Source of the DNA: a virus
Reading direction: 5' to 3' (one strand)
DNA: 28,000 bases
Virus record (IMG/VR): IMGVR_UViG_3300036846_000486
Location: 1 to 28,000 of that record
In this document: one piece after another, positions 635-26,305 of the stretch
Position numbering within the stretch: the stretch's first letter is position 1
Layout: each line of letters begins with the position of its first letter
Program-made: the position numbers and the translations under genes
Notes under the pieces: model-generated
The model's input: only the letters and a program-made list of their open reading frames with translations
The model's database searches: none
Told to the model about the DNA's origin: nothing

Positions 635-786
635 TTGGCGTTGTTCTCCTGGAAGACCGTGAACCAGTCCTCGACGGCCTGCTGAATGTCGCCGGCCAGG
701 TTCTGGGCGTCTTCATCCTGGTAGGGATGGTCGGCGAGAAAATACCGGGCCAGTTCTTCGCATTTGGAATCGTATAGAGTCTTCAT
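631..786 (-). CDS. Small acidic phage protein, 51 aa, unknown function
   Basis: This short gene encodes 51 residues starting MKTLYDSKCEELARYFLADH. Its ATG overlaps the stop of the exonuclease gene (ATGA, 783-786) and its TGA overlaps the start of the next gene (ATGA, 631-634), so it sits as a coupled link in a tightly packed operon. The protein is acidic and predicted helical, with DIQQAVEDWFTVFQENNAK at its end. It has no signal peptide or membrane segment. Small proteins with a CEELA.YFL...LA..IQ..VEDW pattern recur in phage early operons, in my recollection without a known function. The double overlap, sensible amino acid composition and intact frame support it as real. It could be an accessory factor or inhibitor acting with the exonuclease, but that is only inferred from position. 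Confidence 0.75.
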   Translation of the reverse strand: MKTLYDSKCEELARYFLADHPYQDEDAQNLAGDIQQAVEDWFTVFQENNAK

Positions 787-1394
787 AGCCCCTCCATTCG
801 GTGGTATAAATCGAGCGCCAAGCGAAACGTGTCAAAGTCTCGCTCGTACGTCCCCGTTTCAAAGCCGATGACTCTGTAAGTGCCGTCGGCGTGAACTTCA
901 ACGCATTGCCGGCGCCTGCACCTCGGATGCTCCAGACACGCGGCGTAGGCCGCAAGCTGATAGCGCACCGCGGGCGGCGCAATGCCTGACTTGATGTCAA
1001 GGATGAGTTCATGCCCATGCCTGACATAGCCCGTCCGGTCGAGCGTGCCCGCGTAGCCGAGCCGCCGATGGCATACCCGCTGCTCGATGCGGTTCGGTTG
1101 GAATCCGTAATCGCGCCGGAAGCTGCGCCAGCCGGCGACGTAGCCCAGGATCTCTTCTGACTCTTGGCTTTCGTCCAGCCGGCCCTCGTCATCGGCATGC
1201 GTCGCCTGATGGACCTTGCGCCCGCGCTCCAGGTAAAAGAAGCGCCTCTCGCCGAGGAACCTGTAATCGATCATGCCGGTCGATTCCAACACGCGCGTGA
1301 CTCCAGGGACTGGCTTGCCATCCAGCGTGTAGAGATGGGCGGCTTCGTCGAAGATCAGATCCGCCAGCGCTTCCGCAGTTGTCACTTCCGTCAC
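783..1394 (-). CDS. PD-(D/E)XK family exonuclease (RecB/Cas4-like phage nuclease)
   Basis: This is probably a metal-dependent DNA exonuclease of the PD-(D/E)XK superfamily, of the kind phages use to resect ends for single-strand annealing recombination. From the GTG at 1394 it is 203 residues. Visible motifs in order are: FDEAAHLYTLDGKPVPGVTRVL near the N-terminus; ERGRKVH (His ~62), as in RecB/Cas4 nucleases; an acidic residue E~104; GTLDRT with D~119; and the core ILDIKSG with D~133 and K~135. The core is followed by QLAAYAACL, whose Gln and Tyr match motif QxxxY of this family. I chose the GTG at 1394 because it overlaps the upstream TGA as GTGA. A GTG at 1433 in the same frame is an alternative that would add 13 residues. 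The next gene starts inside its stop codon. No annealase gene is visible in the window. Family call strong; exact substrate inferred. Confidence 0.83.
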   Translation of the reverse strand: MTEVTTAEALADLIFDEAAHLYTLDGKPVPGVTRVLESTGMIDYRFLGERRFFYLERGRKVHQATHADDEGRLDESQESEEILGYVAGWRSFRRDYGFQPNRIEQRVCHRRLGYAGTLDRTGYVRHGHELILDIKSGIAPPAVRYQLAAYAACLEHPRCRRRQCVEVHADGTYRVIGFETGTYERDFDTFRLALDLYHRMEGL

Positions 1395-1606
1395 CCTCGC
1401 TTTCTGAGTTCGAACACATATTGGGCGGCGCACCTGGCGCAGGCAAAGCTGTCGCCGTCGAGGTAGCGCACCGACGCCTTCTCGTGGCAGAAGTCGCAGC
1501 GCGCCCCGGGCTCTACGATGCGGCTGCCTTCATGCTTCGGCTCAACAGCTGTTGCTGCGGCTTCGCTTGGACGTATTGCTCCACTGCTTCCCTGTAGATT
1601 CGGCAT
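1391..1606 (-). CDS. Small CxxC...CxxC zinc-binding protein, 71 aa
   Basis: The protein has 71 residues with an unstructured, Ala/Pro/Glu-rich N-terminal half. The C-terminal treble-clef or ribbon-like motif has Cys37-x2-Cys40 and Cys55-x2-Cys58 flanking SVRYLDGDSFACARC. Four correctly spaced cysteines point to one structural zinc ion. Its function is unknown; small zinc ribbons in phage early operons may bind DNA or act as partners of nucleases. It overlaps the preceding RHH-like gene by 94 nt and its stop overlaps the GTG of the exonuclease as GTGA. There is no clear Shine-Dalgarno sequence before the ATG at 1606, so translation probably depends on reinitiation, or a shorter form from a non-standard start exists. 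The long overlap makes the start uncertain, but the Cys motif makes the frame believable. Confidence 0.65.
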   Translation of the reverse strand: MPNLQGSSGAIRPSEAAATAVEPKHEGSRIVEPGARCDFCHEKASVRYLDGDSFACARCAAQYVFELRKRG

Positions 1607-1749
1607 AACTTGACATCAGCCCCCTCTAGTTCGTGGCGTGCGTTGCGGATCGCTTTCATGGCTTCGTGAAGCGGCTCTGGGATCTGGGTGGTGGCGCGGA
1701 CGGTGCCCGCAACCGGCGGGCGCGGCGCTGCTTTCGATTTCTTACGCAT
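1513..1749 (-). CDS. Small ribbon-helix-helix-like DNA-binding protein, 78 aa (first gene of early operon)
   Basis: This is the first gene after the minus-strand promoter at 1836-1864. The 78-residue product starts with a basic tail (MRKKSKAAPRPP). It then has VRATTQIPEPLHEAMKAIR, which resembles the strand plus first helix of ribbon-helix-helix (MetJ/Arc) repressors, and KLCRIYREAVEQYV, which resembles the second helix. If it is RHH-like it would dimerise and bind short inverted repeats. The repeat array at 1906-1955 lies just upstream of its promoter and is the obvious candidate target, suggesting autoregulation. A GGAGG lies 11 nt before the ATG. The insert between the helices is longer than in Arc, so the fold call is tentative. 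An alternative reading is a plain small helical phage protein. Confidence 0.6.
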   Translation of the reverse strand: MRKKSKAAPRPPVAGTVRATTQIPEPLHEAMKAIRNARHELEGADVKLCRIYREAVEQYVQAKPQQQLLSRSMKAAAS

Positions 1750-1835: not shown

Positions 1836-1864
1836 ATGTTATCGCTGCATTATTAGAATGTCAA
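1836..1864 (-). promoter_or_regulatory. Sigma70-type promoter for the early/recombination operon
   Basis: On the minus strand a perfect -35 hexamer TTGACA (1859-1864) is separated by 17 nt from TAACAT (1836-1841), which matches the -10 consensus at four of six positions. It lies about 87 nt upstream of the RHH-like start at 1749 and points into that operon. The inverted-repeat array at 1906-1955 sits roughly 40-90 bp upstream of the -35, a position suited to an activator or upstream operator. The remaining leader (1750-1835) shows no other structure that I can support. Confidence 0.6.
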
Positions 1865-2001: not shown

Positions 2002-2679
2002 TCAGGCAGTGGCGCCGGCCATCAGCATCGGGCGCGTCGGGTCTGCGCCGACGACTTCGTTGAGCGTGCCGACGTAGCCAGCAAAGGTCCCGTCGGCGTG
2101 GAAGCGAGGGCGGGCAAGATCAATCATGTGCAGGTAGACGCCGTCGCTCCGCCGGAAACGGTAGGCAAACTCAAACGGCTCGTGGGTAGCGAAACGTCGC
2201 ACGCAGAAATCCATGGTCTTGACGCGGTCGAAGGGGTGGAGAAAGTCCGACCAGCCAAGCACCAGGAATGCAGCCGGGGGTCGGCCCGCCAACGCAGCGA
2301 GCGCTGGACTCACACGCAGATTTTCGGTGTTCCGCCCAGCCCTCCAGACGAGCATCTCAGTCTGATCTATTCGTCTATCCAGCGCGGCATCGTCCGCAAA
2401 CTGCTCATAGCTTTTTGATTCACCGAAGACTGGAAGATTAGCCGTGAATAGAACCGTGGGCGCAGCAGCGGCGGATTGCGGCCTGGGCTGTCCCGTTGTC
2501 ATGTCGATCGATGGGAGGTGGGTCTCAAGGGCTTCCTGGCAGATGCCGGAAACGGTTCTGGCGCCAGGGGCGTTGGTAGCTATGCGAGCGGCGGCGACTG
2601 CTTCCGCCCAATCATGCAGGGCCCTGGGCAAATAAACGTTGTACGGGCGTTTCCTCGGCGGCTTCGATTCATCAGGCAT
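2002..2679 (-). CDS. Ribbon-helix-helix-like/PAS-domain fusion regulator, 225 aa
   Basis: This is a probable one-component signal-responsive regulator. Residues ~10-56 (RPYNVYLPRALHDWAEA ... TVSGICQEALETHL) look like a small ribbon-helix-helix or CopG-type DNA-binding segment, with a strand PYNVYLP and a second helix preceded by Ser. A Pro/Ala linker follows. Residues ~100-212 form a PAS_3-like fold, with LRVSPALAALAGRPPAAF, the DFLHPFDR signature after it, and FEFAYRFRRSDGVYLHMIDLARPRF ... DGTFAGYVGTLNEV at the end. No kinase, GGDEF or other output follows, so the DNA-binding part would be the output. I chose the ATG at 2679 because GGGGAGAAAGCT precedes it; upstream in-frame codons lack a ribosome site and look non-coding. 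The gene lies divergent to two XRE repressors, in what appears to be the switch region. The PAS ligand is not evident. PAS call good, RHH call moderate. Confidence 0.75.
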   Translation of the reverse strand: MPDESKPPRKRPYNVYLPRALHDWAEAVAAARIATNAPGARTVSGICQEALETHLPSIDMTTGQPRPQSAAAAPTVLFTANLPVFGESKSYEQFADDAALDRRIDQTEMLVWRAGRNTENLRVSPALAALAGRPPAAFLVLGWSDFLHPFDRVKTMDFCVRRFATHEPFEFAYRFRRSDGVYLHMIDLARPRFHADGTFAGYVGTLNEVVGADPTRPMLMAGATA

Positions 2680-2806
2680 AGCTTTCTCCCCAACCCCAAC
2701 CGGCCATCCCCAATAGCCGAGTGGCGCTCGACAGTAAGAATTCTGAAGGAAAAGACTACCATAGAAGATGGCATAGTTACGGCGCAGTGCAAACATTTCT
2801 GCGGCA

Positions 2807-2836
2807 TTGTGAGATAGAACACCGCGCGCGTATAAT
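2807..2836 (+). promoter_or_regulatory. Sigma70-type promoter driving the tandem XRE genes
   Basis: A perfect -10 TATAAT (2831-2836) is preceded at 18 nt by TTGTGA (2807-2812), four of six matches to the -35 consensus, oriented toward the XRE pair. The predicted transcript has a ~130-nt leader before the ATG at 2972. The octamer TGCGGCAT occurs at 2800-2807, touching the -35, and again at 2880-2887 downstream, so it could mark repressor sites. The leader also contains AT-rich blocks (TTTTGCCATATTTTGCGG, 2867-2884). No convincing matching promoter for the divergent PAS gene was found by eye. Confidence 0.6.
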
Positions 2837-2971: not shown

Positions 2972-3241
2972 ATGGATCAACCGGATCGCGGCCAACTGCG
3001 CCGGGTTTTCGGCGTCACGTTGCGCACGCTCCGTTCCCGCGCGGGATATGCTCAGGAGAAATTCGCCTTGGATGCCGGCGTGGATCGAAGCTATGTGGGC
3101 AAGCTAGAGCGTGGCGAAAGCACACCGACGCTCGAAACCGTGTTCCACTTCCTGCCGCTATTGGGGATTTCGTTCGAGCAGTTCGCCGCGGAGTTCGAAA
3201 GCGAACTGCGCCGCGACCGCCGGTCACGCCGCCGGGTATAA
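2972..3241 (+). CDS. XRE/Cro-type HTH repressor, first of a tandem pair (89 aa)
   Basis: This 89-residue DNA-binding protein is almost entirely one HTH_XRE domain. FGVTLRTLRSRAGYAQEKFA gives helices 1-2, LDAGVDRSYVGKLERGEST the recognition helix and the ExG signature, and PTLETVFHFLPLLGISFEQF the last helices. An Arg-rich tail follows. It lacks the LexA/CI-type peptidase domain, so any induction would be by a partner or anti-repressor rather than self-cleavage. It is transcribed away from the phage structural and regulatory genes, and its stop overlaps an ATG of the next gene as TAATG. No good Shine-Dalgarno sequence precedes the ATG at 2972. A role as a lysogeny repressor or Cro-like regulator is inferred from position and family. 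Confidence 0.85.
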   Translation: MDQPDRGQLRRVFGVTLRTLRSRAGYAQEKFALDAGVDRSYVGKLERGESTPTLETVFHFLPLLGISFEQFAAEFESELRRDRRSRRRV

Positions 3242-3300
3242 TGGCGTGCCAATTTACGGCGTGGCATTATAGTGGCGCGACTTGGCAGTATCGCTGTTGG

Positions 3301-3564
3301 ATGCAGAAAGCCATCGAAAAGCGGCATCTCGGAGCGGCGTTTGGCATGACGGTGCGTGCGCTGCGCCTGCGGGCGGGATTGTCGCAGGAAGCCCTGGCGC
3401 TCGAAGCGGGCGTCGGGCGCGCTTACATGAGCGCGCTAGAGCGCGGGCTGCACAACGCCACGATCGGCATGGCGTACCGCCTGCTGCCGTACCTGAACGT
3501 CAGCTTTGTGGAGTTCGCCGCGGAGTTCGAGCGCAGCCTGCGGGTCGCGCGACGCAAGCCGTAG
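3301..3564 (+). CDS. XRE/Cro-type HTH repressor, second of the tandem pair (87 aa)
   Basis: This is a paralogue of the preceding gene. FGMTVRALRLRAGLSQEALA, LEAGVGRAYMSALERG and LLPYLNVSFVEFAAEFERSL line up along the whole length, and an 18-nt stretch is identical (3181-3198 and 3513-3530), which supports tandem duplication. I chose the ATG at 3301 because it places 13 residues before the FG that begins the domain, like the paralogue. The frame is open back to an ATG at 3241 that overlaps the first gene's stop (TAATG), giving 107 residues; that coupled start is a real alternative. It converges on the 111-residue structural gene with a 16-bp gap and no visible terminator. Two repressors of similar fold may form homo- or heterodimers on the shared control region; this is inference. 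Confidence 0.82.
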   Translation: MQKAIEKRHLGAAFGMTVRALRLRAGLSQEALALEAGVGRAYMSALERGLHNATIGMAYRLLPYLNVSFVEFAAEFERSLRVARRKP

Positions 3565-3580: not shown

Positions 3581-3916
3581 CTAGAAGAACGTGCCAACCA
3601 CGCCCTCCACCGCCGCCTGGAGCGCCGCGTCGTCAATGCCGCTGCCCGCCGACTGGACGGCGGGGTCCAGAACCGTGGGATTTTGAACCTGTCCAGCAAC
3701 CTGATCCGGCTGCACGTAGCAGTTCTGCGCCCAGCGCAACCGGGAGGTATGCGCCGGAACGGTGCTTGCCTCGTCCTGGATCGACGTCGCGAACTTGAGG
3801 CACGCCACTTTCACGCGGCCCCGGAAGGTGTAATCGGTTGTCAGTTGGGCGGACTGATCGTAAGAGAGTTCCGTGGCTGGCGGGGTCGGTACGATCTCGC
3901 GCGGTGTTGGCATCAT
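3581..3916 (-). CDS. Conserved phage protein downstream of the tail fibre, 111 aa
   Basis: This is the last gene of the morphogenesis operon, 111 residues, with AAGGAGG a suitable distance before ATGATG (3911-3916; either Met could be used). The central part reads YTFRGRVKVACLKFATSI, then ASTVPAHTSRLRWAQNCYVQPD, and the end has DPAVQSAGSGIDDAALQAAV. I recall similar RVKVACLKFA ... VPAH..RLRWAQ ... PAVQ..G..I.D..LQ proteins in other phages near tail genes, without a defined function. There is no signal peptide, membrane segment or enzymatic motif. Position after a fibre suggests a fibre accessory or minor virion protein. It is probably co-translated with the fibre, whose stop is 16 nt upstream. 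Confidence 0.75.
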   Translation of the reverse strand: MMPTPREIVPTPPATELSYDQSAQLTTDYTFRGRVKVACLKFATSIQDEASTVPAHTSRLRWAQNCYVQPDQVAGQVQNPTVLDPAVQSAGSGIDDAALQAAVEGVVGTFF

Positions 3917-25282: not shown

Positions 25283-26305
25283 CTAGAGCACCTTCGCCAT
25301 GAACGACGCGTTCGGGCGGAAAGGCACCATGATCGGCGCGGATTGCAGCATCACGTAGCGCACCGCCGGGTCCGGTTGAATCCAGGACTTGACATAGTAA
25401 GGAACCGGCTGCAAGCCGATCTCTTCATCGCGGATGGCGCCGAAGGCCTGCACGCCTTCCAGCGCCGGCGAACACATGAGCACCGTGCCGGCAGGCAGGA
25501 TCGGGACCTCGACGCCGGTGCCGGGGTCGACGTACCACCCGCTGTAGACCCAAATATTGAAACCTTCAAGCTGCCCCATCTGCACGCCGCCCTCGGTCAC
25601 CTGAGCCATCGGCATCACGCTGGGCAAGTCGGTGTACTTACGGAAGACGTTCAACACGTTAGTCACGCCGGCGTCGGCGCGGAAGATCTTCCACACGTCG
25701 ACCGTCATGATCACGTCACTCGGGAACACACCGGTGTCTTCCAGACAGATCTGCGCCCAGTCCTGCAGGTTATTCAGGATCGGCGGCGTGGCCGCGGACC
25801 ATAGCGGATTCGCGGTGATCGTGTGAGTCGCGCTGCGCTGGAAATCCACCACCTGCGTCGGGTACTTATCGCCAGTGATGGTCGATTTGCCGGTCGCCAG
25901 CACCTCGCCGCACATGACCTCCAGGCGCCTGCGGAACATGTTCAGTTGGTCTTGCATGTCAAAAGCAATTAACGCTCTGATGCGATCCGCCGGCGTCATC
26001 GTGCCGCCGATTTGCTCTCCTGGCATGCGTTTCAACGGCCTATTCATATCGAAGACTCTTTTGTCCTTTATATAGGCCGGCGTGAACGTGTTGGTCACAA
26101 AGCCCTGGCTTGCGACCACCTGCCCCTCGACCAGCGGCGAGACAAACGGAGAAATCCTACGCTTGCCTTGAATCACGTCGAAATGGATTTGCTCAGAACT
26201 CTCAGCCTGAGTGATGCCGAAAAAGCGGTCCAAAAGGAACTGCGGGTTGCCCAACAGACTCTGGAGCACGGCTGTCAGCACGTCCGTACTAAAGACATCA
26301 GCCAT
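25283..26305 (-). CDS. Major capsid protein (lambda gpE family), 340 aa
   Basis: This protein builds the icosahedral shell. It has 340 residues, against 341 in lambda gpE. Recognisable parts are the N-terminal region (LLGNPQFLLDRFFG, then EQIHFDVIQGKRRISPFVSP); the P-loop-like stretch SQGFVTNTFTPAYIKDKRVF; the spine region (PADRIRALIAFDMQDQLNMF and RRRLEVMCGEVLATGK); and the C-terminal portion with VRYVMLQSAPIMVPFRPNAS. The RIRALIAFDMQDQ...MRRLE signature places it in the gpE group. It lies immediately downstream of the gpD-like gene, the same order as in lambda. CGGAGG lies 10 nt from the ATG. No frameshift or truncation is seen. Confidence 0.93.
   Translation of the reverse strand: MADVFSTDVLTAVLQSLLGNPQFLLDRFFGITQAESSEQIHFDVIQGKRRISPFVSPLVEGQVVASQGFVTNTFTPAYIKDKRVFDMNRPLKRMPGEQIGGTMTPADRIRALIAFDMQDQLNMFRRRLEVMCGEVLATGKSTITGDKYPTQVVDFQRSATHTITANPLWSAATPPILNNLQDWAQICLEDTGVFPSDVIMTVDVWKIFRADAGVTNVLNVFRKYTDLPSVMPMAQVTEGGVQMGQLEGFNIWVYSGWYVDPGTGVEVPILPAGTVLMCSPALEGVQAFGAIRDEEIGLQPVPYYVKSWIQPDPAVRYVMLQSAPIMVPFRPNASFMAKVL

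Follow-up and report, generated by a model that had tools for sequence, protein, structure and literature searches.

A phage protein of the early control region that joins a ribbon-helix-helix-like segment to a PAS_3 domain

The window analysed here is the whole stretch (positions 1 to 28,000) of a 28-kb IMG/VR virus record from a metagenome, IMGVR_UViG_3300036846_000486. A gene on its minus strand (2002-2679, ATG start) encodes a protein of 225 amino acids, RHH-PAS, in which an N-terminal ribbon-helix-helix (RHH)-like segment is followed by a C-terminal domain with a PAS fold. The gene is the first of the early genes, and 292 bp separate it from two divergent genes encoding XRE-type repressor-like proteins. 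RHH-PAS may act as a one-component transcription regulator in this early control region and bias the choice between lysis and lysogeny, a reading to which we assign a probability of about 0.55.

Starting at the major capsid gene (25283-26305, phrog_29), the late genes of the window lead leftward through the tail genes to p111 (3581-3916, minus strand), which is the last gene ahead of the switch region and serves as a marker of synteny. Past p111 lie the two rightward genes of the XRE type, the first encoding 89 amino acids (2972-3241, plus strand, HTH_3 E 7.8e-10) and the second 107 amino acids (3241-3564, plus strand, HTH_3 E 2.7e-11), with a true start perhaps at 3301. These Pfam matches bear out the preliminary description, which had placed the gene divergent to two XRE repressors. 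RHH-PAS follows on the minus strand and leads into rhh78 (1513-1749, minus strand), a separate small RHH-like gene without a match in Pfam, a short zinc-ribbon-like gene (1391-1606) and a phage exonuclease belonging to the early module for recombination (783-1433, minus strand, phrog_298 E 9e-19). Further small genes of RHH-like appearance lie near the rhh78 position in relatives (L086:8465-8707 and L101:10221-10457) and are too divergent for the RHH profile. Four of the larger related records carry a tyrosine integrase, and in two of them, G031 (L092) and G023 (L090), an XRE gene is present at this place as well. The integrases support the view that the phage group can be temperate; the 28-kb window contains no integrase, and its phage is probably a temperate siphophage.

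A sister phage, represented by a 14.7-kb fragment of which a part (L106) was found by scanning with rhh78, encodes a homologue of RHH-PAS. The homologue (L106:3068-3748) shares 45% identity over its full length, which implies that the RHH part, the PAS domain and the conserved linker motif TANLPxFGES belong together, and it heads the early genes in the same orientation and position. The gene order is also the same, with an XRE gene, the RHH-PAS homologue, rhh78 (93% identity), the zinc-ribbon gene and the exonuclease (81%). The XRE gene of L106 is the counterpart of the second of the tandem genes in the window (87% identity) and the first has none, so that one copy has been gained or lost. A good ribosome-binding site, GGGGAG, can be read directly ahead of RHH-PAS in the window (2686-2691, minus strand), and its equivalent in L106 is AGGGGGAG. 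Comparison of the two RHH-PAS genes gives a dN of 0.51, a dS of 1.27 and a dN/dS of about 0.40; a homologue of 45% identity at the same place with such a ratio identifies a real gene under purifying selection. The RHH part (dN 0.73) diverges faster than the linker and PAS domain (dN 0.43), as a changed DNA specificity would give. At the same time the dS of RHH-PAS exceeds that of its neighbours rhh78 (0.38), the second XRE gene (0.24) and the exonuclease (0.79), which suggests that the cassette has been exchanged between phages.

The distribution of the gene is narrow. Exact-peptide scans with the RHH-PAS protein itself returned no viral homologue, and among viral contigs, phage records, plasmids and genomes L106 encodes the only homologue of the whole protein, all other matches being to the PAS part alone. 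The bacterial side of this search covered plasmids and a sample of the phylum of Pedobacter, and in the 51 genomes of that phylum every match was to the PAS part, in frames of at least 534 amino acids. Fifty phage records that contain a related capsid gene gave no match to the protein, and a search of 21 records for PAS_3 gave matches only in the window and in the records of L106 and L105. The last of these is a 56.6-kb phage record with two tyrosine recombinases in which no related capsid gene was found; it encodes a 159-residue PAS_3 protein without a recognisable DNA-binding part (L105:3734-4213), and the gene lies directly upstream of one that resembles a Bet/RecT recombinase by eye. The best match in BFVD, A0A6J5NY05, is a 205-residue PAS protein of an uncultured phage with 199 columns aligned to the predicted model of RHH-PAS, and on this structural comparison it may share the RHH-PAS layout. 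In the eleven other relatives in which the slot was read (L103 incomplete) none has an RHH-PAS gene, and L085 carries an XRE gene and homologues of rhh78 (62% identity) and the zinc-ribbon gene without it. That most relatives do without RHH-PAS counts against its role as a one-component regulator of the switch.

The slot is occupied differently in L097 (record G011), where p111 is followed by a gene (L097:11001-11984) for a 327-residue AraC-type regulator with an AraC_binding_2 domain (E 1.4e-12) and an HTH_18 match just under the cut-off; no XRE homologue was found at this slot. Two types of sensor in three phages, RHH-PAS in the window and L106 and the AraC type in L097, form the basis for a tentative and rather doubtful generalisation, namely that this group of siphophages has a sensor slot between its repressor and recombination genes, and that one-component regulators are exchanged there, so that a shared switch is tied to differing signals of the host from one related phage to the next. 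A different explanation for the sporadic occurrence of RHH-PAS is that it is a moron-type regulator which acts on host genes during lysogeny, its position next to the XRE genes being a mere place of insertion. This would agree with the presence of the gene in no more than two of the surveyed relatives, with the elevated dS of the cassette, as if it had been swapped by recombination, and with a PAS domain that is closest to those of host-type sensor kinases. In both carriers, nevertheless, the gene has the same orientation and stands first among the early genes, a divergent control block beside the XRE promoter is common to the two, and the remaining early genes follow directly after, so that we consider a moron unlikely.

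The PAS_3 domain extends over residues 103-209 (2053-2373, minus strand) and is recognised by Pfam, by the AlphaFold2 model and by Foldseek. The Pfam match to PAS_3 (PF08447) covers residues 121-205 with an E value of 7.5e-10 and 39.4 bits against a curated cut-off of 25.6, and the L106 homologue reaches 46.6 bits. The model is a monomer prediction (mean pLDDT 65) run on an alignment of four rows without separate RHH rows, and it shows the PAS order of strands and helices over residues 110-208, with blocks of pLDDT of about 69-87 over the PAS domain and 67-83 in the N-terminal helices. From the N-terminus the model consists of a strand (15-16), two helices (19-35 and 43-57), a stretch of low confidence (63-93), a further helix (97-106) and the PAS domain to residue 208. 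The linker or PAS N-cap (residues 75-105; 2365-2457, minus strand) is conserved between the window protein and the L106 homologue in TANLPxFGES and the helix that follows. The matches listed by Foldseek are PAS or LOV proteins, including 3h9w (E 4e-7) and the PAS domain of NifL, 2gj3. Pfam finds no further domain above its cut-off and no other output domain is present, in agreement with the initial claim that the protein lacks a kinase or any other output.

PAS domains of the PAS_3 type are common in bacterial sensor kinases, in which a DIT motif leads into the C-terminal output. In RHH-PAS the DIT-type motif at the end of the domain is replaced by EVV in the window protein and by YLT in the L106 homologue, and this degeneration fits an output on the N-terminal side. 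The flavin-binding cysteine motif of LOV domains, GXNCRFLQ, is absent from both sequences when these are read directly, which makes a light sensor of the LOV type unlikely; light was one of the signals that the preliminary description had suggested, beside redox state and a small ligand. Neither a helix-turn-helix, as in the VqmA-type layout in which it follows the PAS domain, nor the C-terminal nickel-binding regulatory domain of NikR occurs in the protein, the C-terminal domain of which is PAS_3. The loss of the DIT motif and the fact that no known cofactor motif is seen could also mean that the PAS domain senses nothing and provides a module for dimerisation or protein contact, in which case RHH-PAS would be a constitutive repressor or activator, or would bind the XRE protein and so act as an antirepressor. 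PAS domains often dimerise, and VqmA requires its PAS domain to form dimers (PMC8284805). On the other hand, the window protein and its homologue, at 45% identity, agree in the positions of the PAS core and the domain evolves more slowly than the DNA-binding part, and a PAS domain without a sensory role appears improbable.

The N-terminal segment (residues 12-57; 2509-2646, minus strand) is predicted by AlphaFold2 to form the short strand and the two helices given above, and is putatively DNA-binding. It has no call in Pfam, NCBIfam or the PHROG collection, the RHH models of Pfam and NCBIfam having been searched up to E values of 1-10, and because no such model matches it is classed as RHH-like and not as a member of RHH_1. 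The evidence for the fold comes from a comparison of profiles, in which the RHH side consisted of 20 sequences (18 PF01402 matches from unrelated genomes, CopG and Rv0298). In hhalign the N-termini of the window protein and its L106 homologue match this RHH_1 profile with a probability of 15% and an E value of 1.8e-3, in register from the strand through the end of the second helix, and when two rows of rhh78 are added the values become 86% and 4.8e-6. For comparison, the rhh78 relatives alone give 39%, the positive control ORF56 gives 96% and a piece of the PAS domain 0.4%. In 300 column shuffles no score was as high as any of the three real ones, those of the N-termini, of the pool with rhh78 and of rhh78 itself, and 215 tiles of sixty residues taken from other proteins of the window all stayed below the score of the window N-terminus alone. 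The spacing of hydrophobic positions fits an RHH, and the turn between the helices is about eight residues longer than in ORF56 (2k9i), which we take to be an RHH plasmid protein. Residues 15-56 align with the start (VY-I/L-P-x-x-x-HD) and the end (S-x-x-C-x-x-A-I/L) of ORF56. The segment is therefore probably, though not certainly, an RHH with an unusually long turn between its helices. An earlier profile of four sequences was discounted as circular, its positive result depending on ORF56, which had itself been picked by the analysis's own profile; with ORF56 removed it also failed to find ORF56 and thus had no power, and the set of 20 was used instead. The idea that the RHH part arose as a duplicate of rhh78 was dropped because the evidence did not bear it out (E 7.6 in BLASTP; 0.9% in direct comparison of the profiles).

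In the PDB, the profile pooled with rhh78 matches the ORF56 chain 2k9i weakly over the whole segment (E 0.64), and without rhh78 the N-terminal profile finds nothing. The N-terminal part modelled in isolation is of low confidence (pLDDT 55) with no defined strand and has no fold match in the PDB, being too weak a model for a fold search. Such a model, the lack of a match to any curated RHH model and the PAS_3 protein of the different phage L105 would suit an N-terminus that is a helical hairpin contacting another protein, with RHH-PAS as a PAS adaptor that does not bind DNA, but this is the least probable of the alternatives given the in-register match of the profiles, unreached by shuffles or tiles, and the weak match to ORF56. 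The original proposal that an RHH-like segment (about residues 10-56) is joined to a PAS_3-like sensor (about 100-212) accordingly stands for the PAS domain and is probable for the RHH; of the profile searches it had suggested, that for PAS_3 succeeds and that for RHH_1/CopG yields no match above the cut-off.

The divergent region between RHH-PAS and the XRE genes (2680-2971) contains no clear sigma-70 promoter for RHH-PAS and no strong palindrome. It does contain a block conserved with L106 (about 2737-2813) that is a candidate operator or promoter and the likeliest place for the XRE protein or RHH-PAS to bind. Within the block lies a 15-mer, TGCCGCAGAAATGTT (2792-2806), which abuts the -35 element of a sigma-70-like promoter directed toward the XRE genes (2807-2836, plus strand, TATAAT at 2831-2836), the latter recognised by match to the consensus. 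The 15-mer occurs exactly only in the two phages that carry RHH-PAS and in none of 12 other relatives scanned; the nearest other copy, with one mismatch, is in L089, far from the slot. A second group of signals lies on the other side of the gene, where a sigma-70-like promoter ahead of rhh78 (1836-1864, minus strand) consists of TTGACA, which is conserved in L106, a spacer of 17 and TAACAT. Here an array (1902-1967) holds two copies, one with a mismatch, of the 17-bp palindrome AGCACYGNNNCRGTGCT placed 22 bp apart. The palindrome precedes the rhh78 homologues of L085 (L085:11180-11196) and L106 (L106:3807-3845) as well, and among 1.38 Mb scanned perfect copies are found in the window and L085 only, in both cases just before rhh78. 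Since L085 keeps it without an RHH-PAS gene, the array is assigned to rhh78, of which the palindrome is likely to be the operator, and was rejected as an operator of RHH-PAS; the region 1750-2000, put forward in the preliminary description for binding assays, is thus better assigned to rhh78 as a candidate site. An intrinsic terminator at the same place was also rejected, as no run of T follows the palindrome on either strand.

In the mechanism that we propose for RHH-PAS as a one-component regulator, the N-terminal RHH segment would dimerise and contact DNA through its paired strand, and the C-terminal PAS_3 domain would hold the oligomer together. A signal, perhaps a small molecule of the host or a protein partner, would alter the binding to DNA in the way that the metal-binding domain of NikR does. 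The likeliest site of binding would be the divergent region 2680-2971 common to the RHH-PAS and XRE repressor genes, from which RHH-PAS could act on its own promoter and on the early operon, and possibly on the promoter of the XRE genes as well. The outcome would be a bias in the choice between lytic growth and lysogeny.

Phage decisions on lysis that read a host signal are known in few cases, which include VqmA and LuxR-type receptors, arbitrium and the response to DNA damage. The closest in kind is VqmA of phage VP882, which is both a receptor of the PAS type and a transcription factor; it recognises DPO, a signal of the host, activates qtip, which encodes an antirepressor, and triggers lysis (PMC8284805, PMC12802170). 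Like RHH-PAS it is a phage-encoded one-component regulator with a PAS domain, but in VqmA the PAS domain comes first and a helix-turn-helix after, whereas RHH-PAS has its RHH-like part at the N-terminus and a PAS domain of the PAS_3 subtype. VqmA has the partner Qtip, while no Qtip-like partner was identified for RHH-PAS, and RHH-PAS gave no sequence match to phage records. No description of an RHH-PAS regulator was found in the full text of open-access papers. The initial view that no well-described phage switch has this architecture holds for the RHH-PAS layout and is too strong as regards the kind, since a PAS regulator controlling phage lysis is already known in VqmA, from which RHH-PAS is set apart by its DNA-binding fold, the order of its domains and the subtype of its PAS. 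The arrangement of domains is that of NikR, in which a flexible linker leads from an N-terminal RHH to a C-terminal domain for sensing and oligomerisation (PMC7949043). NikR is encoded on the chromosome and its sensor domain binds metal, in place of which the phage protein has a PAS domain, and the two parts of RHH-PAS are separated in the model by about 30-40 residues of low confidence, compared with the flexible linker of NikR. ORF56 and CopG (1b01) are small repressors that consist of nothing but an RHH; they lack a sensor domain, and a shorter turn joins their helices. The best matches to RHH-PAS in sequence and fold are PAS_3 domains of the same subtype in bacterial multi-PAS sensor kinases and cyclases (such as 3h9w), which unlike RHH-PAS are long multidomain proteins with C-terminal outputs.

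If the proposed role is correct, RHH-PAS adds a domain architecture to the phage regulators of this kind and, as a compact protein, allows a direct search for its ligand. The AraC-type gene at the slot in L097 makes the general idea testable that whole sensors are swapped in front of one early operon. RHH-PAS may give the phage the means to adjust its own gene switch in response to a signal.
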